A DNA stretch of 25,465 bases. It comes from a virus. The stretch spans positions 1-25,465 of IMG/VR virus record IMGVR_UViG_3300034190_001094; one strand, written 5' to 3'. The position numbers and the translations under genes are program-made. The notes under the pieces were generated by a model, which did no database searches, was not told where the DNA came from, and was given only the letters and a program-made list of their open reading frames with translations. This document shows, one piece after another, positions 1 through 21,531 of this stretch. How positions within the stretch are numbered: the first letter of the stretch is position 1; each line of letters opens with the position of its first letter.

Positions 1-687
1 TTCTTCCATTCTAATCTTACCAAGTTTATTTAAGTCGGCAGCTTTGTAATTATGTTTGGTCATAAGTCTAGTCATGGCCATTACTGATACAAATGGTATA
101 TCACCACCATATAATTTTTCTAATGCGTTCTTGTCTTTATCAAACTTGGTAAACATTGCACCTAATTTGTTTGCATTGTCAATAGAAATCTTCTTACCTC
201 TTAAAGGTTCGTATTGTTTCTGTAACTGTTTAATTTGACTATCTGAAAAACTTTCTTCTAGTTCTTCATTTGCATTATCTGGATTGTACTCCATGTAATC
301 TGAAACTGAATTGATATAGTCTTTTGCTTTTGTAATCTTAGATTGCACCCATGCTTCTAGTTGTGCATCATCTGTTTTACCTTGTAAGATAGAAGATAAC
401 TTTAATGCTTTATCAGATATAGCTTCTAGTTCTCCACGAGCCATAGAAATCTCATGGTCGGCAGCCTCTTTAATTCTTACATAAAATCTGTTATTAAACG
501 GAGATTGGTATACATCTGCATCTTTGCCCATTTCTTTATTAGCCTTGTCGGCCATTTTCTGTGCCAATGCTCTGTTTGGTAAAGCGTTACCTAATACCTT
601 AACACCGTTTTTTAATTTGCTTACTTCTTTTTCAGTCAGCGCTACTTGTTGCATCGCCTCTGTGAATGTTTGTCTATATCTGCTCAT
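1..687 (-). CDS. Unknown phage protein, C-terminus cut by window edge
   Basis: An open frame runs without a stop from the ATG at 687 to the left edge (229 codons seen), so the C-terminus is missing. I do not recognise the family. The protein is charged and helical-looking, with many Glu, Lys and Asp residues and no membrane segment or catalytic motif that I can see. The N-terminus MSRYRQTFTEAMQQV resembles the T4 capsid-targeting pattern (MKTYQEFIAEA in T4 internal proteins), notably the FTEA end. It starts one base after the TAA of the preceding gene (689-691) and is the most distal visible gene of the left operon. A virion or internal-head role is inference from the N-terminus and the operon. 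Confidence 0.85.
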   Translation of the reverse strand, partial: MSRYRQTFTEAMQQVALTEKEVSKLKNGVKVLGNALPNRALAQKMADKANKEMGKDADVYQSPFNNRFYVRIKEAADHEISMARGELEAISDKALKLSSILQGKTDDAQLEAWVQSKITKAKDYINSVSDYMEYNPDNANEELEESFSDSQIKQLQKQYEPLRGKKISIDNANKLGAMFTKFDKDKNALEKLYGGDIPFVSVMAMTRLMTKHNYKAADLNKLGKIRMEE

Positions 688-688
688 T

Positions 689-1036
689 TTAGTTGTCTAC
701 CTTTGCTCCCGCTCTCCATTGATAACACGACCAGTATCTAGCTTTCCATTTAGGACCTGGATTATCACAATTATGCCTAGCTCTAAAAGACTTTCTTCGA
801 GCTGGGTTATCTCTCTTAATACTTAATCCAGTTGTATCGCCGAATGACACTTTAACAATATTGCCTTGGTCATTCTTAACATAAACATAAAACTTCTTAC
901 TGCCACCTCTAATCGGGTCGTTTAATTTAACTTTCTTACCTTGATACTCAGCCTCTTGTAAACCCTCAAGCTCGTGCTCAAAGATACACTCTTCACATGC
1001 TTCATCAATATTTTCGAATTCTTTAAATGTTTTCAT
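689..1036 (-). CDS. Small Cys/Trp-rich phage protein with capsid-targeting-like N-terminus
   Basis: This 115-residue protein begins MKTFKEFENIDEACEE, very like the T4 internal-protein leader MKTYQEFIAE. The middle is a beta-rich segment (residues about 33-75). The C-terminus has a basic stretch with the pattern HNC...GPKWKARYWSCYQW, whose two Cys with aromatic and His neighbours suggest a small metal- or fold-stabilising motif. I have the impression that such tails recur in marine T4-like phage proteins, but I cannot check it. Its ATG overlaps the TAA of the 794-residue gene (TAATG), which implies translational coupling. No enzymatic function is assignable. An internal-head protein is the favoured inference. 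Confidence 0.85.
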   Translation of the reverse strand: MKTFKEFENIDEACEECIFEHELEGLQEAEYQGKKVKLNDPIRGGSKKFYVYVKNDQGNIVKVSFGDTTGLSIKRDNPARRKSFRARHNCDNPGPKWKARYWSCYQWRAGAKVDN

Positions 1037-3420
1037 TATAGTTTCTCTATCATCTTAGAAACGACATCCTCTAATCTAGTTCGCCATTCCTCTTTGTATC
1101 GTTCCCTATATTTATCAATTGTTTCAGCTGAAGAAGCCCATTCTTTTATATCTTTTTTGCCAATAGATTTAGGGTCGTTAGGTGTGCCTCTTAATTTAGC
1201 ATCTACTGGTGCTACATCTGGCGTTTCACCTGGTGTCATTTCTTTTGTATGATTAGCATAATCATGCCCAATTTCATAGGACTCAGGTACAAAACCCTCT
1301 ACTTTTTGTGCATCTTCTATACTCATCTCTTCAGGTACACAATTTGGTACCATCTTATCACCTTTTTTCTTCATGCCTACTTTTTTATAACCTACCCAAC
1401 AAGCATCTTGTAAATCTCTCTTAAACTCACCAAACATTTTCTTATACTTTGTTGTATGAATACTTGGTTTAGTCTTAGCATCTTTATCGCCTGGTGCTGG
1501 TTTATTATCGTTCTTTGTAGTATCTTTATTCTTAAAGTAGTCTGCTCTTTTGTCTTTAGTATCTTTCTTTAAGTCTTTGTAATACTTTTTAGGTTGTGTA
1601 CCTTTTTTCTTTTTGACATCTCTATCCTGTGGTTGAGCATCCATATCTTCTTGTACATCTGATACTGCTTCAAAACCATAGTCAACATCTAAGTTATATT
1701 CTCTCACTTGTGCCTCCCTATCGCTGGCTTCTGGAATGCAATCCCAAATCCACGCTTTATGCAAATTGTTTTTGTTATCTTCTACAACAATATAATTAGT
1801 ACCTTTTCTCACAATCTTACCTTCAATATTTTCTTTGATATACTTTACAGTATCGCCGATATTAAATATCTGTTCTCTGATATAGAGGTCTCTAATTTGT
1901 TGTTGTTCGAATTCATTTAAACTAGCAATTGGTTTCTGAGCAAGACCGATATGTGCGGCTGCACCACCGAATGAGGCAGCTAGTTTCATACCTCTTCTTA
2001 CTTGTTTCATAATAGTTGTTGCATCTGCATTTCCTGGTAAACCTTTTTTGAAACTTGCAAGGTCACCTTTGGCAGCTGCAGCTCTCATCTTAGAAGCACT
2101 CATACCTGTGGCACCCTCAGCATCGGGGTCCCTTTCACCGGCAGATACAACTTTAATACTTTGAAAATCATATAGACCATGTCTTGATTTTACACCATTA
2201 TATTTCTTTAAAATAGTGTCGAATTCTCTTACTCTATCTGAACCTGCAACCATAGTTACATCTGTATAACCTTTATTGTGTAGGTCAGTTGCAAGGTCAA
2301 GTACCATATTAGTAGGATTAATTTGAATATTTCTAGCATGACTAGGAAATAACTTCTTCATAATCGTTAACTTATCTCTAGGAGATAGTGGATTCTTTTT
2401 AGGATCCTCACTTCTACTTAGAAAGATTTTGTAATCATTTGTAGGTTGTGACTTGACTTTACTAATAAGTTTTTCGTGACCAATTGTAGGTGGATTAAAA
2501 CGACCAAATGCAAACGCAACAGACTTCTTAGTTGCCTCATGCATTTCTAAATCTTGTACTTCTTTATCAGTTACAATACCATCTTCTAAAATCTTTTTAC
2601 ACTTCTTGTAGAATTTTAGATAGTGATACTTCTCTAACATCTTATAGATAACATTTTTTGGTAGTCTATTCTTAACACCGTAATCTCTAATTTCATCTGG
2701 TGCCATATCTGTGTCAAATGCTTTTCTTCTTTCTGCATCAACACCGTCACCAATTCTAATGATAACTCGTAAGTCATCTTCGATTTCTTCTAACTTATCT
2801 TTAATTTTATCTTGTAAGTTTAGAACATCGTTTGATGATAAATCTTTTAATTCATTGTAGTCAATGATATCTCTTGTTAATTCACCTTTAACTACATCAA
2901 GTTCTTGGACTTTTCTAGTAAACTGACCAATGTACATGTCAACATCAAATACAAAATCTTCTGGTCTTTTTACAAACACATCTCTTTCAATATCAAAAAC
3001 GGCATCTGCCTTTCTGTTTTGGTCATCGTAAGTTGCTTTGTCTGTAATAAAATAATAGTTAATTGGATGTTCTGTACCAGGTATTACTTTACCTTGAATG
3101 TTATCAGGATTTGAGGCAGACAAATACTTCTTAGAAAGTCTAACTCTTTCGTCTTCTCTTTGACCTAATGGTACATCAAACAATACATTGATATCTAAAT
3201 CTGCATCATTTCTATATCGTTTAGTTAAAATAGAACCAATTAAAGAATACTGTAGTACAGGATATTCACTCTCAAATACCTTTAACTGTTTCTCTATCTG
3301 TGCCTTAACACTTGGTTTAATTTTAGGGTCATTGGTATCTGCATCATTGAATACAGCCGGTGCATATGTCCGTCTTGGTATATCAATAATACTTTCTATG
3401 ACTTCTCTAAACTTTTTCAT
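1036..3420 (-). CDS. Large fusion: pol-beta-type nucleotidyltransferase plus cytidylyltransferase-like domain
   Basis: A 794-residue multidomain protein. Near residues 60-80 the pattern GS...RNDADLDINV fits the pol-beta nucleotidyltransferase signature (hGS followed by DxD). A helical linker covers about 160-295. Residues about 300-460 look like a HIGH-type nucleotidyltransferase (NadR/NMNAT/cytidylyltransferase class): FGRFNPPTIGH contains the GH of the HxGH box, and GMSASKMRAAA resembles the downstream ISSTxxR box. Residues about 515-562 look like a small beta-barrel (FNIGDTVKYI...). A Lys/Asp-rich linker follows, then a motif DACWVGYKKVGMKKKGDK near 670. The N-terminus MKKFREVIESI resembles the shared capsid-targeting leader. 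The start ATG overlaps the upstream TGA (ATGA). Substrates are unknown. An NAD-related or RNA-modifying role is possible but not shown. Confidence 0.9.
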   Translation of the reverse strand: MKKFREVIESIIDIPRRTYAPAVFNDADTNDPKIKPSVKAQIEKQLKVFESEYPVLQYSLIGSILTKRYRNDADLDINVLFDVPLGQREDERVRLSKKYLSASNPDNIQGKVIPGTEHPINYYFITDKATYDDQNRKADAVFDIERDVFVKRPEDFVFDVDMYIGQFTRKVQELDVVKGELTRDIIDYNELKDLSSNDVLNLQDKIKDKLEEIEDDLRVIIRIGDGVDAERRKAFDTDMAPDEIRDYGVKNRLPKNVIYKMLEKYHYLKFYKKCKKILEDGIVTDKEVQDLEMHEATKKSVAFAFGRFNPPTIGHEKLISKVKSQPTNDYKIFLSRSEDPKKNPLSPRDKLTIMKKLFPSHARNIQINPTNMVLDLATDLHNKGYTDVTMVAGSDRVREFDTILKKYNGVKSRHGLYDFQSIKVVSAGERDPDAEGATGMSASKMRAAAAKGDLASFKKGLPGNADATTIMKQVRRGMKLAASFGGAAAHIGLAQKPIASLNEFEQQQIRDLYIREQIFNIGDTVKYIKENIEGKIVRKGTNYIVVEDNKNNLHKAWIWDCIPEASDREAQVREYNLDVDYGFEAVSDVQEDMDAQPQDRDVKKKKGTQPKKYYKDLKKDTKDKRADYFKNKDTTKNDNKPAPGDKDAKTKPSIHTTKYKKMFGEFKRDLQDACWVGYKKVGMKKKGDKMVPNCVPEEMSIEDAQKVEGFVPESYEIGHDYANHTKEMTPGETPDVAPVDAKLRGTPNDPKSIGKKDIKEWASSAETIDKYRERYKEEWRTRLEDVVSKMIEKL

Positions 3421-4112
3421 TTTCTTCTCTTGTTCCTTAGTTCAGTAGCAATCCATCTTTTAGCTGTATAAGATTTGATTGGATTGTTAAGCATTCTGTT
3501 AACTGCTTTACTTACTTTGGTCATTGTTTGTGTTGTTAATTCTTTATCTGATATATTGTTATCAATAATTACCATGTTACTAGGACCAAATAGGTTTTGA
3601 AACTTACCAATATTTGATTGTACATCATTCCAACTTCTAGTTACAATATATTCTGGTATTGTTCTACTTCTCATTTGATTTCTTTGCAAGGCAACATCTA
3701 AAGATGTGTTAACAAATATCATATGTGCATCGTAACCTAATTCTTTCAATGCTCTTACTTGATATGAAATCTTATCGAAATCTCTACCAGTACCATCAAC
3801 TACTAAACCTAAACGACCCGCTAATGCTAAGTCTAACATATTACTAGTTGTTGCCTTTGCTCTGGCACGAACCATATCTCTAGCATCTGCTTCACTATCA
3901 GGCATTTTCAATGACAGACCTGCCTTTTTAATACCTCTTTCAAATGCATTATCTGAATTTATAACTTTTAAACCTGAACCAGCAAATGCACTACCTGTTA
4001 CAAATGATTTACCAGAACCTGGACCACCAGCTAAAAAGAAAGCCTTAAAGATGTTCTTATCATAAACACCCTCTGTTAAGTCTTGATATCTTATCTGGTC
4101 AAATGTCTTCAT
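3417..4112 (-). CDS. P-loop kinase, zeta-toxin-like
   Basis: A 231-residue protein with a Walker A motif GGPGSGKS at residues 29-36, followed by a segment VINSDNAFERG that resembles the substrate-binding region after the P-loop in zeta toxins and polynucleotide kinases. Later, LVVDGTGRDF fits the Walker B-like strand of that class, and basic residues (NQMRSRTI) could form the lid. The N-terminus MKTFDQIRYQDLTEG matches the shared leader, and DLTE followed by G fits a T4 prohead-protease type site (hydrophobic-x-Glu). The gene overlaps both neighbours through ATGA junctions. The substrate could be a nucleotide, a nucleic acid end or a UDP-sugar. The assignment beyond P-loop kinase is inference. 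Confidence 0.88.
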   Translation of the reverse strand: MKTFDQIRYQDLTEGVYDKNIFKAFFLAGGPGSGKSFVTGSAFAGSGLKVINSDNAFERGIKKAGLSLKMPDSEADARDMVRARAKATTSNMLDLALAGRLGLVVDGTGRDFDKISYQVRALKELGYDAHMIFVNTSLDVALQRNQMRSRTIPEYIVTRSWNDVQSNIGKFQNLFGPSNMVIIDNNISDKELTTQTMTKVSKAVNRMLNNPIKSYTAKRWIATELRNKRRK

Positions 4113-4687
4113 TTCTTTACCTTGTTTATTATTTCTTTAGCAATACTTTCAGGCGTATCACCATATGCTTTAATATTTATTATTTCTTTCTTATAATACT
4201 GCAATAAAGGTCTAGTTTCTTTTTCGTAAGTCGCCAATCTCTTTTTAATAATATCTGGTTTGTCGTCTTCTCTACCTCTTGCTGTCAATCTTTTTATAAT
4301 TTCTTCTTCTGGTATAACAAGATTTATTACATAGTCATACTCAATACCTTGTTCTTCCATCATCTTTGCTTGTTCAACACTTCTAGGAAAACCATCAAAG
4401 ATATAACCTTTTTGTGCATCTGGTTTTTCTAATCTTTGTTTTACTATCTTAATTGTCAAAGGTGTTGGTGCAAATTTACCTTGGTCTAATAATCTTTTTA
4501 CTTCTTTACCATCCGGTGTATTTGTTTTTGAGATTGCTCGTAACATTTCACCTGTATAAATGTGTGGTATATTTAATTCTTTCTTAATAATATCTGAATA
4601 GGTAGATTTACCAGAACCAGGACCACCTATCATAATGATTTTAGGTCCGTTTATTGCCTCAAAATAGAAGTGTTTAAATGTCTTCAT
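4109..4687 (-). CDS. adk: Adenylate kinase with capsid-targeting-like leader
   Basis: A 192-residue nucleoside monophosphate kinase expected to interconvert ATP + AMP and 2 ADP. Walker A is GGPGSGKST (residues 21-29), the NMP site is YTGEMLR (about 44-50), DGFPR lies at about 98-102, and the lid arginines are in TARGREDDKPDIIKKRL. The lid is short and has no zinc cysteines. I chose the ATG at 4687 rather than the one three codons upstream: it forms a TAATG overlap with the preceding gene, and the protein then begins MKTFKHFYFEA, matching the leader of its neighbours. An adenylate kinase with a ten-residue extension of this type is unusual. Packaging in the virion is inferred, not shown. Cytosolic nucleotide supply is the plain alternative. 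Confidence 0.93.
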   Translation of the reverse strand: MKTFKHFYFEAINGPKIIMIGGPGSGKSTYSDIIKKELNIPHIYTGEMLRAISKTNTPDGKEVKRLLDQGKFAPTPLTIKIVKQRLEKPDAQKGYIFDGFPRSVEQAKMMEEQGIEYDYVINLVIPEEEIIKRLTARGREDDKPDIIKKRLATYEKETRPLLQYYKKEIINIKAYGDTPESIAKEIINKVKK

Positions 4688-5904
4688 TAATTCCAACCCT
4701 TTGGCATAGTAAAGTTTTGCCTACTAAATTCTAATCTATCTACAAATTTAACTGCACCTGCTGTACTGTTGATTGCAACATAACCCTCTGGTGCCGTTAC
4801 TCTGTAACCATTTTTTGTTCGTAAGAAGTGACCAATAGACTTAATCTGGTTCATCTTCTGTAGTAAAGTACCTTTTGCAATACCTAATGTAATGTGTGAG
4901 GCAATAGCAAAGTATAATGCTGATTGATTTCGGTCAATAATTTGTAAACCTTTTTTCAAAGCAACTTTGTATTTTTCTTTTCCTCGTTCTGTTTTCTTAC
5001 TATCAATTTCTTGTTGTAAGTAATTCTGGAAGTAATCTCTAAACTGTGCTTGCATGATTTTAACTTTAGCCATGCTTGAATTTGAATTTCTAATGTATGA
5101 GTTAAAGTATGTTTTTAATCTGTAACCTACAGATAGTTCATCGTTGATATTACCACTCATCAAATCTAAAATTGGTTTTGCTTTTGATAATGAACCTTGT
5201 GCCATTCTAAGTTGTGCATCAAACTTAGCTAACTCTGCTTGAGTGAATGTTGAAGTACCTGAAGTGTCTTGGTACTTTGCACTTGCCAACCATATATTTT
5301 TATTTGTAGAACCTGTTACTGAACCAAAACTAGCAGCTAAACTTGCCATAGTTTTACCATTGTATTGTGTATGAAACACGATACCCATTTTGGCAGCTGC
5401 AATCTTTTTACCAACTGCACTATTTTTTGGCATAGCATATGTGATTGTATTTGGTGTAAAAGAAATCATTGGTTCACCGTCTATAGTGATATTCTTTTTG
5501 TCATCACCTGTGAACAATAGGTCACCTTGTAAGATGCCTTTGATGTTTAATTTAGATAGATAAGCAAGACATACTTTTAATTTTTGTGCAACAACACCAC
5601 CATGGTTACTATCAATATCTCTATTGGTATAGTTTATCTTAGGTGTTTTATTGAATACTGATTTTGTGCCGACAAAGAATTTGCCGTTTTCTGGATTGAT
5701 ACCACAGATAATAGCAGGCGCACCGTCCCATTTAACCGTAATATTGACCTTACTTCTGGCAGAACCAGCAAGCATATCTCTTACAGTCATTAGGAAGTTT
5801 AACGCATTATCGCCACCTTGTGAACCACGGTTGATGATATCATCTTCCAGATGTTCTAGGTGTGTATTCGTATCTTGTGTTTGAAACCCTTTAAAACTAA
5901 ACAT
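4687..5904 (-). CDS. Phage protein with KxDG motif, ligase-like nucleotidyltransferase
   Basis: A 405-residue protein. It has VKWDGAPAII near residue 58, matching motif I (KxDG, the adenylated lysine) of the DNA/RNA ligase and capping-enzyme superfamily. GILQGDLLF near 123 could be motif III, and near the C-terminus APEGYVAI followed by GAVKFVDR could be motifs IV and V. The order and spacing fit an RNA- or DNA-ligase-like fold, but I cannot confirm this without a profile search. The N-terminus MFSFKGFQTQDTNTH is a looser version of the leader seen in the next genes. It is the first gene of the left operon, with both a sigma70-like and a T4 late promoter upstream and a GAGAGAGG ribosome site before the ATG. 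Confidence 0.9.
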   Translation of the reverse strand: MFSFKGFQTQDTNTHLEHLEDDIINRGSQGGDNALNFLMTVRDMLAGSARSKVNITVKWDGAPAIICGINPENGKFFVGTKSVFNKTPKINYTNRDIDSNHGGVVAQKLKVCLAYLSKLNIKGILQGDLLFTGDDKKNITIDGEPMISFTPNTITYAMPKNSAVGKKIAAAKMGIVFHTQYNGKTMASLAASFGSVTGSTNKNIWLASAKYQDTSGTSTFTQAELAKFDAQLRMAQGSLSKAKPILDLMSGNINDELSVGYRLKTYFNSYIRNSNSSMAKVKIMQAQFRDYFQNYLQQEIDSKKTERGKEKYKVALKKGLQIIDRNQSALYFAIASHITLGIAKGTLLQKMNQIKSIGHFLRTKNGYRVTAPEGYVAINSTAGAVKFVDRLEFSRQNFTMPKGWN

Positions 5905-5925: not shown

Positions 5926-5954
5926 ATTATACTATAAAAGTTGAGGTTTGGCAA
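5926..5954 (-). promoter_or_regulatory. Sigma70-like phage promoter for the left operon
   Basis: On the minus strand TTGCCA (5954-5949), a 17-base spacer, then a perfect TATAAT (5931-5926). Transcription would start about 15 bases before the ATG at 5904. It is the same promoter type found at six other places in the window. Confidence 0.85.
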
Positions 5955-5988: not shown

Positions 5989-5996
5989 TATTTATA
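5989..5996 (-). promoter_or_regulatory. T4-type late promoter for the left operon
   Basis: TATAAATA on the minus strand, identical to the T4 late-promoter core read by the gp55 sigma factor. It lies about 85 bases upstream of the ligase-like gene and just downstream of the stop of the preceding gene, so the operon could be expressed late, when heads are assembled. Confidence 0.75.
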
Positions 5997-10851: not shown

Positions 10852-11955
10852 TTACCTGATAATATCAATTTCAGCATCTTTTGTCCATATTTCTAAATCA
10901 TTTCTGATACGGTTTTCTTCTTTTAATTTGTTGTATCTTTTGGTGGCTATTTTCTTCCACCATTCTACAACTCCAGGTACGGTATATCTATCATAGTTAT
11001 CTGCTTTGACAATCTTATCTGTCTTACCATTTATAATATCTATATAGTTTTCTATACCATAATTACTTGTGTAATATCTTTTTTGTTCGGTCAAATTCTT
11101 TGCATTTGCAATGGTAGTTTTAAACTTTTCTAGTTCATCACCATCAAGGGCTTTCTTTACAAGACCAATAATACCAGTGGTCATTTTAAGTTTACGACTT
11201 GATGCATCTACTTTTACTAGTTGACCTTTACCAATAATATTTTCAACATACTCTACCATATCTAGGTATGGTTTACCATGCATCATAGGAATAAAATCTG
11301 ACATAGTATTACCTTTGTATCTTAGAAATGGTTTCATTCCGTCATACATCGAAGCACCTTTTGTTTTCCCATATAAAGATGTGGTTTCAAATAGTACCAG
11401 GTTCATACCATACTTTTCATTCAACTTTTCCCTAACATAGTGTGAACAACAGATGCCAGCCAATAACTTACCACCGAGATAATTATAACCAAAGGGCTGA
11501 CAAGGCACAATAACAAAACCCATAATGGCTGTTTTGTTAAAAACAGTGAGATTAGGGACATTACCCAAGAGGTCATTCCTAGGTTTACAATTAATAACAG
11601 GACTACCAAAACGGATAAAGCCCAAAAACTTATTAGTAATCTTATCTTTGACGGCAAGTTTCAATGCCTTTCCTGGAATAGATACCATATTACTATGGGA
11701 AGAAATCATATTTATGCAACTGTCCCATGTGTGATTATCTAGTTCAACAATTTCAATGTCCATGTCTTGTGGTGATATGGTAAAATCATCAAACATATCA
11801 CTATCAAACCCCATACCAGGAAGAGAAGTCGGTAGACTTTCAATCTGAGCCATTTTCTGGTCACGCATGTATTGGTCTATTCTGTCAAACTGACCAAAGT
11901 AGTCATTAAATATATTAGCACAATGTAGTGCTTGTTCTCTACTTAGGGTCTTCAT
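10852..11955 (-). CDS. Unknown replication-module protein, possibly DUF4338/DruA-like
   Basis: A 367-residue protein. The N-terminal 80 residues are acidic (GFDSDMFDDFTI). Residues about 90-230 carry the recognisable pattern KFLGFIRFGSP, then GFVIVPCQPFGYNYLGGKLL, EKYGMNLVLFETTSLYG and a Tyr-Asp-Gly turn. This resembles the acetyltransferase-like DUF4338 family (which includes DruA of the Druantia defence system) as I remember it; I cannot confirm by search. The C-terminus is a basic helical tail ending in WKKIATKRYNKLKEENR. It has its own strong promoter and sits between gene 43 and uvsX, so a role in replication or recombination is likely by context. Defence or counter-defence is speculative. 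Confidence 0.85.
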   Translation of the reverse strand: MKTLSREQALHCANIFNDYFGQFDRIDQYMRDQKMAQIESLPTSLPGMGFDSDMFDDFTISPQDMDIEIVELDNHTWDSCINMISSHSNMVSIPGKALKLAVKDKITNKFLGFIRFGSPVINCKPRNDLLGNVPNLTVFNKTAIMGFVIVPCQPFGYNYLGGKLLAGICCSHYVREKLNEKYGMNLVLFETTSLYGKTKGASMYDGMKPFLRYKGNTMSDFIPMMHGKPYLDMVEYVENIIGKGQLVKVDASSRKLKMTTGIIGLVKKALDGDELEKFKTTIANAKNLTEQKRYYTSNYGIENYIDIINGKTDKIVKADNYDRYTVPGVVEWWKKIATKRYNKLKEENRIRNDLEIWTKDAEIDIIR

Positions 11956-15202: not shown

Positions 15203-15231
15203 ATTATAACACAACTGACCTAATTTGGCAA
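15203..15231 (-). promoter_or_regulatory. Sigma70-like promoter for the ferredoxin/gene 43 unit
   Basis: TTGCCA (15231-15226), 17-base spacer, perfect TATAAT (15208-15203) on the minus strand. The -35 lies inside the last codons of the RimK-like gene. Confidence 0.85.
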
Positions 15232-16617
15232 GCTGTATTTCGTTGTTATTACATATTTTCTTTGTGGGTTTACCATGACATTTAATGTATTCATAAATGC
15301 ACGGTCAAGAAGAATAGGAGACCTATCTTCTCTATCATCAATGGTAAATTCTACATCTTTGTAAAAACCACCAGCGAATTCTACATCTAGTTTTACGACA
15401 TATCGGTCTTCATCATAATCTCTTAGGCCACCAACTTTGATTTCTTCTTTACGAACAATATCAGAAGTTATTGTTTTGCCGAGAAGAGACCATCTAATTT
15501 GTCTACCAGATACCGAAAACTTATCACTATGTATGACAGGCATGCCTGAATTACCAGTGTCAAACTTAGCAACAATTTCTCCAAAAGGTTTGATTGTGAC
15601 CACTTCTTTGTAGCCACACTCCGTTGGAGTAGTATATCTATTTCTTTTATCAGCAAAATGCTGGATAACCTCACGAGATATGTTCTGATTACTCGCATCT
15701 TCAATTCCCTCAGTTCCAGGTGATGAGTTCACCTCTAGCATAAATGGCGGTTCTTTATCTCTATTCTTACTAGGTATAAAATCAACTGCCGACCATGTCC
15801 CGTTTACTGCTTTAGCAGCTCTAAGACTTTCTTCTATTTCTAATTCTGTTAATTCAATGTTTTCTGGTTCTGAACCTTGTGATACATTTGACCTGAAATC
15901 TCCTTCAATAACTGGTCGTTTCATAGCTGCAATAACTTTACCACCTAATACATGTACCCTAACATCATAGTCTGTTTTAATATATTGTTGTGCCAATAAA
16001 TCTGCGTCTTCATCTTGTTTGTGTATTAGTTGTACAATACTGTCTAATGACTTAGCACTTTCAACAAACAATACACCGACACCTTTACTACCTCTTAAAG
16101 TTTTTAAGATAAGAGGAAATTTAAGACCAGCATTCTCTACTTGTTCTACTGATTTTTCGGGGTCGTTTATTAAAAAGGTTTTTGGTTCTGTTAAACCATA
16201 ATCTGCAAGTCTTAATGAAGTTCTATACTTGTCAGCACAAATTGAAATACACTGTCTATTATTAACTAGACAAACTTCTTCTTTTTCTAAAATAGAAACA
16301 AAGTCCATCCAACTATCTTTTCTGGTAATACTACCACGAATAATAGCAACAGTTCTCTTGTCGATTTCAAAACCTTTTTTATCGTCTTGATTATGAAATC
16401 TACGAACACCGTCTTCTAGCGTTGTGTAACCACCAGTAAGTTTAAACAAGTAGTGTGGATATTTTAGTTTATCACACTCTTCTTGTAGTCTATCAGCTGT
16501 ATGAAAAGTCTTCGCCTCTTCAGGTTCATCTGTTACGATGAGTAATCTTAGAAAAGGTTGTTCTTTTTTTGCTTCTGATAAAAAATCTTTAAACTTTGGT
16601 ACTAACATTTCCGCCAT
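15220..16617 (-). CDS. RimK-like ATP-grasp ligase fused to aspartic-protease-like domain
   Basis: A 465-residue two-domain protein. Residues about 25-320 are an ATP-grasp ligase like RimK: FPLILKTLRGSKGVGVLF (nucleotide loop), QYIKTDYDVRVHVLGGKVIA, and FMLEVNSSPGTEGIE (metal-binding Glu/Asn). Residues about 335-465 match the ATP-dependent protease partner found next to RimK in some bacteria (retroviral aspartic fold), with AKFDTGNSG carrying the DTG and ILLDRAFMNTLNV the second half. RimK adds glutamate to the C-terminus of ribosomal protein S6; the partner is thought to reverse or tune this. The start at 16617 has AAGGA five bases before it; a TTG four codons earlier is less likely. The N-terminus MAEMLVPKFKDFLSEAKK resembles the capsid-targeting leader (FLSE/A). 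It overlaps regA. Confidence 0.93.
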   Translation of the reverse strand: MAEMLVPKFKDFLSEAKKEQPFLRLLIVTDEPEEAKTFHTADRLQEECDKLKYPHYLFKLTGGYTTLEDGVRRFHNQDDKKGFEIDKRTVAIIRGSITRKDSWMDFVSILEKEEVCLVNNRQCISICADKYRTSLRLADYGLTEPKTFLINDPEKSVEQVENAGLKFPLILKTLRGSKGVGVLFVESAKSLDSIVQLIHKQDEDADLLAQQYIKTDYDVRVHVLGGKVIAAMKRPVIEGDFRSNVSQGSEPENIELTELEIEESLRAAKAVNGTWSAVDFIPSKNRDKEPPFMLEVNSSPGTEGIEDASNQNISREVIQHFADKRNRYTTPTECGYKEVVTIKPFGEIVAKFDTGNSGMPVIHSDKFSVSGRQIRWSLLGKTITSDIVRKEEIKVGGLRDYDEDRYVVKLDVEFAGGFYKDVEFTIDDREDRSPILLDRAFMNTLNVMVNPQRKYVITTKYSLPN

Positions 16618-19548: not shown

Positions 19549-19577
19549 ATTATATATCATATCTCATCAAATGGCAA
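19549..19577 (-). promoter_or_regulatory. Sigma70-like promoter for the replication operon (gene 45)
   Basis: TTGCCA (19577-19572), 17-base spacer, perfect TATAAT (19554-19549) on the minus strand. The -35 overlaps the last codons and stop of the peroxiredoxin gene. Confidence 0.88.
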
Positions 19578-20100
19578 GTCCAAGATGCTTAGCCACATTT
19601 TCTGGAGATGTTTCACCATATGGGTCATTTTCACCACTATCTTTAGGTTCAATAAACCATTTCTCAATTACATTATCATTTACGATACATGCATAACGCC
19701 ATGACCGATTACCAAAACACACATCGGATTTATCTGTTATCATACCCATACCATTGGTAAACTCACCATTGCCATCAGGTATTACTTTAACATTTTTTAT
19801 GCCTAAGTGTTTTGCCCAAGCGTTCATAACGAAACTGTCATTAACAGATACTACATAGATTTCATCTATACCAGCATCTTTAAATTTTTGATAGTTCTCT
19901 TCAAAACCTGGTAGTTGATATGTACTACAAGTAGGAGTAAATGCTCCAGGTAATGAGAATAAAATTACTTTTTTACCACCAAACAATTCAGTTGATGATA
20001 GGCCAACATACTCACCACCAATAGGGCAACCACCTTCTTCTGGTTGTTCATCACCTACACGGCATTGGAAAGTTACATCGGGTATTCTTTTTGGTATCAT
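19567..20100 (-). CDS. Peroxiredoxin, Prx5-like
   Basis: A 177-residue thiol peroxidase expected to reduce H2O2 and alkyl peroxides. The peroxidatic Cys58 is in LPGAFTPTCS, with the catalytic Thr upstream, and the supporting Arg is in GNRSWRYACI. Other cysteines (13, 25, 128, 138) could act as resolving residues; I cannot tell which. The C-terminus KDSGENDPYGETSPENVAKHLG is typical of the Prx5 branch. The start at 20100 has AAGGA seven bases upstream. A longer reading from 20169 would run through the glycine tRNA and is rejected. It is probably cotranscribed with the two tRNAs from the promoter at about 20.3 kb. Confidence 0.95.
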   Translation of the reverse strand: MIPKRIPDVTFQCRVGDEQPEEGGCPIGGEYVGLSSTELFGGKKVILFSLPGAFTPTCSTYQLPGFEENYQKFKDAGIDEIYVVSVNDSFVMNAWAKHLGIKNVKVIPDGNGEFTNGMGMITDKSDVCFGNRSWRYACIVNDNVIEKWFIEPKDSGENDPYGETSPENVAKHLGLAI

Positions 20101-20124
20101 TCTATATCCTTCATAATTAAATAT

Positions 20125-20199
20125 TGGAGCGAGTAGGGAATTTCGCAATCCCGACCTCTTCGTTGGCAACGAAGCGCTCTACTTCTGAGCTATACTCGC
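20125..20199 (-). tRNA. tRNA-Gly (anticodon GCC), CCA encoded, non-canonical D/T loops
   Basis: A full cloverleaf can be drawn: acceptor GCGAGTA/TACTCGC (7 bp), D stem GCTC/GAGC, anticodon stem CTTCG/CGAAG with loop TTGCCAA (anticodon GCC), five-base variable loop, T stem GGGAT/TTCCC with a T-T clash at 53-61, discriminator U73 and an encoded CCA. Glycine identity bases expected for bacterial GlyRS (G1-C72, C2-G71, U73, C35, C36) are all present. The D loop AGAAGTA has A18-G19 instead of GG. The T loop TGCGAAA has G at 55 instead of U, while C56 and A58 remain. Confidence 0.88.
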
Positions 20200-21261: not shown

Positions 21262-21462
21262 TTATCGCATCTGCTCTAACTTTTTCATCTTCTTTTTATA
21301 ATTCTTTATACCAGCCTTTTTAGCTTCACGCTTGATTTCACTAGGCTTCATATAGTGCTGACGGTCTCTAAGTTCTTTGAGAAGGCCTGACTTTTGTACT
21401 TTTTTCTTAAGCACTCTTAATGCCTTTTCTAAGTTACCGTTTCTTACTTCAACATATACCAT
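21262..21462 (-). CDS. rpsU: Ribosomal protein bS21
   Basis: A 66-residue homologue of bacterial ribosomal protein bS21, which sits at the 30S platform near the Shine-Dalgarno/anti-Shine-Dalgarno helix. The N-terminus MVYVEVRNGNLEKALRVLKKK and the central SGLLKELRDRQHYMKPSEIKRE are diagnostic; the basic tail NYKKKMKKLEQMR is usual. I chose the ATG at 21462 (AAAGGA upstream) because it gives the normal bS21 start. A longer frame from 21519 would cross the late promoter. Phage-encoded bS21 is known in Pelagibacter myophages. It could replace host bS21 and bias initiation to phage mRNAs. Confidence 0.96.
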   Translation of the reverse strand: MVYVEVRNGNLEKALRVLKKKVQKSGLLKELRDRQHYMKPSEIKREAKKAGIKNYKKKMKKLEQMR

Positions 21463-21491
21463 GTTGTCCTTTCCGTTAAATTGAGTAGTGT

Positions 21492-21499
21492 TATTTATA
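21492..21499 (-). promoter_or_regulatory. T4-type late promoter for bS21
   Basis: TATAAATA on the minus strand, 29 bases before the bS21 ATG. The next eight bases, ACACTACT, complement the loop of the terminator just upstream. Confidence 0.75.
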
Positions 21500-21507
21500 A
21501 TAAGGTT

Positions 21508-21531
21508 GGTGGGGGACACTACTCCCCCACC
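21508..21531 (-). terminator. Perfect 8-bp GC-rich hairpin after cobS-like gene
   Basis: GGTGGGGG and CCCCCACC form a perfect stem with an eight-base loop AGTAGTGT (minus strand), 25 bases after the stop of the AAA+ gene, followed by AACCTTATTAT. There is little T tract. It separates the cobS-like unit from bS21. Confidence 0.65.

Follow-up and report, generated by a model that had tools for sequence, protein, structure and literature searches.

The window analyzed here (the whole stretch, a 25,465-base virus record from IMG/VR) carries on its minus strand, preceded by a gp41-type helicase gene, an operon in which five of six consecutive genes begin with a short N-terminal leader. We consider it likely that these leaders are capsid targeting sequences (CTSs) of the T4 internal-protein (IP) type, through which the operon's enzymes would be packaged, cut, and injected with the DNA; the leader-bearing enzymes are probably packed alongside the genome and delivered to the next host cell. 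A sequence-only reading had proposed such a signal on these enzymes, and the proposal is upheld by the following: (i) T4's own IPs were recovered in a blind control; (ii) seven of seven larger carriers in relatives are virion proteins; (iii) the leader precedes unrelated protein bodies; and (iv) cellular adenylate kinases lack it. It is qualified by a DUF6267 protein without the cleavage Glu and by a kinase whose site is ambiguous. The nearest named relatives of the window are T4-like marine myoviruses (Kyanoviridae); DNA comparison points to Pelagibacter phage HTVC008M, the RimK-like protein to Pelagibacter phage Mosig, and the zeta-type kinase to Methylophilales phage Melnitz together with HTVC008M.

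A leader at the start of five of six operon genes

The leader comprises 9 to 14 residues: an aromatic one stands near position 4, joined in the clearest examples by a second near position 7, and hydrophobic-x-Glu follows before Ala, Gly, or Ser. All six N-termini quoted in the sequence-only reading were found at their genes on the minus strand, and its identification of an adenylate kinase, a zeta-like kinase, and a double nucleotidyltransferase was borne out by Pfam. More specifically (a slash marks the predicted cut), the operon encodes a DUF6267 protein (4687–5904, E = 6.6e-123; beginning MFSFKGFQTQD, with the extension MFSFKGFQTQ at 5875–5904); an adenylate kinase, ADK, of 192 aa (4109–4687, E = 1.3e-45; leader MKTFKHFYFE/A at 4658–4687); a Zeta/PNK-type P-loop kinase of 231 aa (3417–4112, Zeta_toxin/AAA_33, E = 1.7e-11; beginning MKTFDQIRYQDLTEG, leader MKTFDQIRYQDLTE/G at 4071–4112); a 794-aa protein (1036–3420; leader MKKFREVIE/S at 3394–3420) combining NTP_transf_2, a pol-beta-type nucleotidyltransferase, with CTP_transf_like, an NMNAT/cytidylyltransferase-like domain in which we read the GRFNPPTxGH motif of NMNAT-like enzymes; a 115-aa protein (689–1036; beginning MKTFKEFENIDEA, leader MKTFKEFENIDE/A at 1001–1036), which matched PHROG 7595, of unknown function; and a 229-aa protein of unknown function cut by the window edge (1–687; first residues MSRYRQTFTEA from the start at 687, leader MSRYRQTFTE/A at 658–687), for which the same search returned no family. 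In addition to these six, a clean leader, MLVPKFKDFLSEA, was found on a fusion of RimK-like ATP-grasp and Zn_protease-like domains (15220–16608, minus strand, start at 16608; leader MLVPKFKDFLSE/A at 16573–16608), for which Pfam reported RimK at 5.2e-36 and a C-terminal Zn_protease at 4e-06.

Aromatic residues occupy both positions 4 and 7 in ADK and the 115-aa protein; the pattern is partial in the zeta-type kinase (F4), the nucleotidyltransferase (F4), the 229-aa protein (Y4), and the RimK-like protein, where the register is shifted. The hydrophobic-x-Glu site ends the leader in five of the six operon genes and in the RimK-like protein. The exception is DUF6267, which has Gln in place of Glu, and in the nucleotidyltransferase, where the leader MKKFREVIESI is present, the site is corrected to VIE/S, with Glu9 as the residue before the cut.

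Scoring with a fixed-register matrix trained on marine contigs only gave clear values for ADK (18.0) and the 115-aa protein (7.5), values of −4 to −8 for three operon genes, and −14.1 for DUF6267, while all window genes outside the operon scored below −11. As a fixed register misses shifted leaders, such as MRFRQFIIEA in S-SZBM1, regular expressions were added afterwards, and the p-values derived from them are indicative only. A relaxed expression matched five of the six operon genes versus 17 of 687 genes in three cyanophages.

The leader matches the T4 internal-protein signal

To T4 we applied the marine-trained matrix blind, across all ATG-initiated frames of at least 60 codons. IPIII, IPII, and IPI ranked first, second, and third of 1,158 frames, with a wide gap to the fourth. 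In T4, the first 10 residues of IPIII suffice for incorporation; mutagenesis has mapped targeting chiefly to residues 4 and 7 and processing to residues 8 and 10; the gp21 protease site is L/I-x-E; and IP propeptides span 10 to 19 residues (PMC9026906). The window leaders agree with the IP signal in N-terminal position, length, aromatic residues at 4 and 7, hydrophobic residue at 8, Glu at 10, and gp21-type protease site; the long form seen in IPI (MKTFKEFTSTTTPVSTITE/A) is found also on the 115-aa protein (MKTFKEFENIDE/A) and the kinase (MKTFDQIRYQDLTE/G). They differ in that their cargo consists of operon enzymes (ADK, PNK-type kinase, nucleotidyltransferase-NMNAT), in that their length is more variable, and in that their cleavage is predicted. 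T4 prefers L or I at the P3 residue of the site, while ADK relatives have Y or F, and I in some.

Other phages provide partial parallels. T4 Alt, an injected ADP-ribosyltransferase, is likewise an enzyme packaged in the head, made with an N-terminal propeptide and carried into the host along with the DNA, but its propeptide has 7 residues and the enzyme is unrelated to those of the window (PMC9026906). The ejection proteins of giant phages such as SPN3US and phiKZ are head-packaged too, their propeptides being removed by a prohead protease that cuts behind a short motif with Glu as its last residue (PMC9026906); compared by description, their propeptides and cargo are different.

A prohead protease is annotated in both HTVC008M and Mosig, and the window is a fragment without head genes. 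On one marine contig (L102), the major capsid protein reads FLSE/AAPTNSTNSG where its propeptide is expected to end, and the same contig encodes a small leader protein reading MKTFGDFLGE/AAPTNSVGNGG, the two sharing the junction E/AAPTNS; the Mosig capsid protein has FLSE/AAPTNATGS. Because these junctions are shared, the predicted cut behind the leader resembles the likely maturation site of the group's own capsid protein.

Leader carriers are found in virions of related phages

Published virion mass spectrometry of three cyanomyoviruses, S-SCSM1 (PMC9602691), S-CREM2 (PMC10665884), and S-SZBM1 (PMC9146016), allowed us to relate the leader to virion presence. In S-CREM2, the five best leader scores among 217 genes all belonged to virion proteins, namely a cytidylyltransferase, an APH kinase, a SAM hydrolase, and two unknowns. 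Likewise, the S-SCSM1 NMNAT and the S-SZBM1 cytidylyltransferase combine a leader with virion presence, and the Cas9-like protein of S-CREM2 virions has a leader displaced by 16 residues. The predicted leaders read MKNFSSFLTE in the S-CREM2 cytidylyltransferase and MKSFLQFLKE in the S-SCSM1 NMNAT. Across the three phages, a start-anchored regular expression found 9 leaders versus 0.21 expected from internal sequence, 6 of the 9 being virion proteins (Fisher P = 0.0019). Among proteins of at least 200 residues, all 7 carriers are virion proteins as opposed to 102 of 252 overall (P = 0.0016), the carriers including three NMNAT-like enzymes, the APH kinase, the SAM hydrolase, and the Cas9-like nuclease. 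None of the three virion proteomes contained the DUF6267 homologues that lack a leader. An out-of-sample case is provided by S-CRM01, in whose virions a kinase has been reported (PMC10665884): this kinase starts MISFDQFLSEK, and several of its neighbors carry leaders too. The virion enzymes of these four cyanophages resemble the window set in comprising a homologous NMNAT-like enzyme with a leader, detected by mass spectrometry, and differ in host and in enzyme set; the virion papers, as read here, mention no leader and offer packaging or carry-over as explanations.

Leaders displaced behind some 16 to 18 residues (SRWxxW...) are conserved in three cyanophages (L131 7704–10313, which is S-CREM2 gp12; L229 10216–13149; L228 10422–10973), in one case on a Cas9-like protein found in virions.

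Several observations weigh against packaging by means of the leader. The virion stocks were CsCl-purified, and their authors allow both packaging and carry-over (PMC9602691, PMC10665884, PMC9146016); many virion proteins encoded in the same cluster start without a leader; and the proteomes are those of cyanophage relatives, a set outside which this phage and the pelagimyophages lie. The regular expressions were composed after the data had been seen. Some relatives of the 115-aa protein have no cleavage Glu, the cytidyltransferase of HTVC008M (MKTLKELLRKK) has a poor leader, and the DUF6267 extension of the window, its aromatic residues notwithstanding, has Gln where cleavage needs Glu. Furthermore, three small carriers of 105 to 165 residues were undetected in the three virion proteomes. 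Contamination by carry-over is nevertheless disfavored as the source of the virion enzymes: because the leader tracks virion presence, and DUF6267 homologues without it went undetected, packaging is the favored explanation.

The undetected small carriers bear on a different explanation, in which the leader is a true address for the prohead core, but the proteins it brings there take part in head assembly or are broken down within the prohead, so that nothing useful is injected. The T4 core proteins gp22, gp67, and gp68 are indeed processed in the prohead, and IPIII also aids head assembly (PMC9026906). That the seven larger carriers, mostly annotated enzymes, persist in mature virions argues against this explanation, and we regard it as unlikely. 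The small carriers themselves are possibly degraded core proteins; they comprise homologous leader proteins (SVNISGDFNGN) of S-SCSM1 (L126 44215–44535) and S-SZBM1 (L136 13312–13629), as well as a 165-aa neighbor of the latter in S-SZBM1.

The leader motif is portable and is selected as protein

To assess CTS-like leaders beyond the window, we scanned IMG/VR with a degenerate DNA pattern for genes starting MKTFxxFxxEA, which returned at least 120 stretches. A control pattern of equal degeneracy, with Glu and the second Phe exchanged, returned 5 matches in the whole collection, making the swapped motif at least 24 times rarer. Among the matches listed, positions that the pattern leaves free are constrained: position 8 is I, L, V, M, or C in 101 of 112 nonredundant leaders, and position 6 is Q or E in 85 of the 112. 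Upon removal of their first 11 residues, the 120 listed proteins fell into 53 clusters without detectable similarity, whose representatives include adenylate kinase, an NMNAT-kinase fusion, DUF6267, an acetyltransferase, a glucosaminidase, and many unknowns. A T4-type core gene was present on the fetched stretch at 78 of the 120 listed loci versus none of the 5 control loci. A few of the 120 matches are likely due to chance, for example an 11-residue frame in L037. An ADP-ribosyltransferase identity was considered for leader proteins starting HGT...GF (L013, L060, L107, L118) and set aside, the PARP/ART matches being subthreshold and confined to L118.

A shared gene start might instead be a signal acting at the level of the mRNA or of translation initiation, or follow from a bias toward A-rich starts in an AT-rich genome, and MKK or MKT starts do suit AT-rich genes, as the tight packing of the operon, with its overlapping starts and stops, would suit such a signal. 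Synonymous codons, however, vary freely at the conserved leader residues, and therefore selection acts on the protein; position 8 is kept hydrophobic through unrelated codons, the swapped pattern sharing the ATGAARACNTTY start is rare, and leaders follow virion presence. We consider an explanation at the mRNA level very improbable.

Leaders are probably distinct from the enzymes that follow them

Comparison with non-phage homologues, as called for in the sequence-only reading, showed that solved cellular adenylate kinases lack the ADK leader: they align from query residue 16 or 17 to their own residue 2 or 3, which leaves a 14-residue extension on the window protein. Relatives as distant as 66% identity retain this leader. 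Relatives of the nucleotidyltransferase have quite different leaders; in those that were read, hydrophobic-x-Glu or a near variant of it precedes [SA] and a conserved IDIPR. Relatives of the 229-aa gene retain its first 11 residues ahead of a downstream protein that differs. The RimK-like homologue of Mosig starts MQVQPFKNYLEEA, its leader MQVQPFKNYLEE/A corresponding to MLVPKFKDFLSE/A in the window; it is 80% identical and annotated as glutathione synthetase, and RimK domains also occur in some cyanophages. A "structural protein" label on the RimK homologue of YerA41 was not used as virion evidence, as that protein starts without a leader and its record likewise lists ribonucleotide reductase as present in particles.

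The zeta-type kinase is ambiguous. Its Glu-Gly had been read as a gp21-like site, and it is present, with Glu14-Gly15 invariant in 26 sequences and the preceding residues variable. We withdrew this invariance as proof of cleavage, since the same Glu-Gly is kept inside fused proteins: NMNAT-kinase fusions of marine phages (L009, L017, L048, L099, L114) have a single N-terminal leader and an internal LITE/GVYD (once LINE/GVYD). Judged by sequence, this junction may be either an internal prohead-protease site, which would make the fusion a polyprotein divided inside the head, or a feature that the kinase fold requires. A sequence search for solved structures of the zeta-type kinase found none, and a fold search with its predicted model returned the bacterial polynucleotide kinase 4gp7 as nearest.

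That the N-termini belong to each enzyme's own fold, with Glu-Gly or Glu-Ala as a structural feature, is suggested by the kinase LITEGVYD within those fusions, by VTEG in Atu_ph07, and by the modest leader scores of three operon genes, but is rendered highly unlikely by Straboviridae kinase homologues that lack EG yet still start MKKFSEFIKLEE or MNFKEFCQLDEA, by the low confidence at which residues 1 to 12 of the kinase are modeled ahead of a confident core, by the solved adenylate kinases without extension, and by nucleotidyltransferase relatives that swap the leader and retain the site.

DUF6267 occurs both with and without a leader among phages. The extension is absent from most cyanophage homologues, and cleavable forms are found in Melnitz (INFSKYITE/D), HTVC008M (MYNDLLVE/D), and L042 (MKTFAQFISE/A). 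In T4, Asp at position 10 blocks processing but permits targeting (PMC9026906). Because targeting and processing can be separated in this way, the DUF6267 protein of the window might, by analogy, be targeted without being cut.

Promoters and surrounding genes

A T4-type late promoter, TATAAATA (5989–5996, minus strand), lies upstream of the operon; of 17 distinct relatives with at least 59% identity, 14 have it ahead of the homologous operon as well. The earlier claim of a late promoter stands on this conservation; the number of TATAAATA octamers in the window (5 versus 3.7 expected) is not above chance and was dropped as promoter evidence. Late transcription fits packaging. Between the late promoter and the first operon gene, we read a sigma70-like promoter on the minus strand (5926–5954), consisting of TTGCCA (5949–5954), a 17-base spacer, and TATAAT (5926–5931), with similar elements in several relatives; it would allow earlier expression as well.

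A corresponding gene cluster lies between gp41 and gp61 in HTVC008M, S-SCSM1, S-SZBM1, and S-CRM01. Elsewhere in the window, positions 10852–11955, within a phage replication cluster, encode a protein matching DruA of the Druantia defense system (Pfam PF14236, 2.7e-07). The longest peroxiredoxin frame (19567–20169) runs at its 5' end into a tRNA-Gly(GCC) (20125–20199), and the true start of the peroxiredoxin is therefore probably further downstream. A small frame at 21262–21519 reads like ribosomal protein bS21, and an S21 gene is also annotated in HTVC008M and Mosig.

Discussion

In this marine phage, a row of enzyme genes in one operon bears a T4-type capsid targeting sequence and belongs to a far larger group of tagged proteins; the principle is known from T4, and its broad use is new. 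A literature search that reached few subscription papers found no earlier description of the leader in marine phages, or of a tagging of metabolic enzymes that fits virion proteomes. In the mechanism we propose, the tagged enzymes would be produced late, the aromatic residues near positions 4 and 7 would dock them into the prohead core, a gp21-type prohead protease would cut after the Glu of hydrophobic-x-Glu, and the mature enzymes would remain in the head and exit with the DNA at the next infection. Going by what is known of these families, a packaged NMNAT-like enzyme, ADK, and PNK-type kinase could restore NAD or adenylates, or mend RNA ends, right after entry, and a packaged RimK could modify a host ribosomal protein.

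A speculative extension, which we rate as somewhat less probable than not, is that marine T4-like phages use one portable, protease-removed head tag as a general means of delivering swappable enzymes (NMNAT-like, adenylate kinase, PNK-type kinase, RimK, SAM hydrolase, protein kinase, Cas9-like nuclease) that act before phage gene expression; the NMNAT-kinase fusions may then be polyproteins cut in the head at LITE/G into two injected enzymes.

Metabolic enzymes have been found repeatedly in cyanophage virions and have so far been left unexplained or suspected of being carry-over; the tag would explain their presence. If it marks packaged enzymes, the question becomes directly testable, and injected cargo becomes predictable from the genomes of uncultured viruses. 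The tag also points to entry, and not the period after expression, as the time at which some auxiliary metabolic genes of abundant ocean phages act, and it would tell when and where the RimK, kinase, and NMNAT-like genes do their work.

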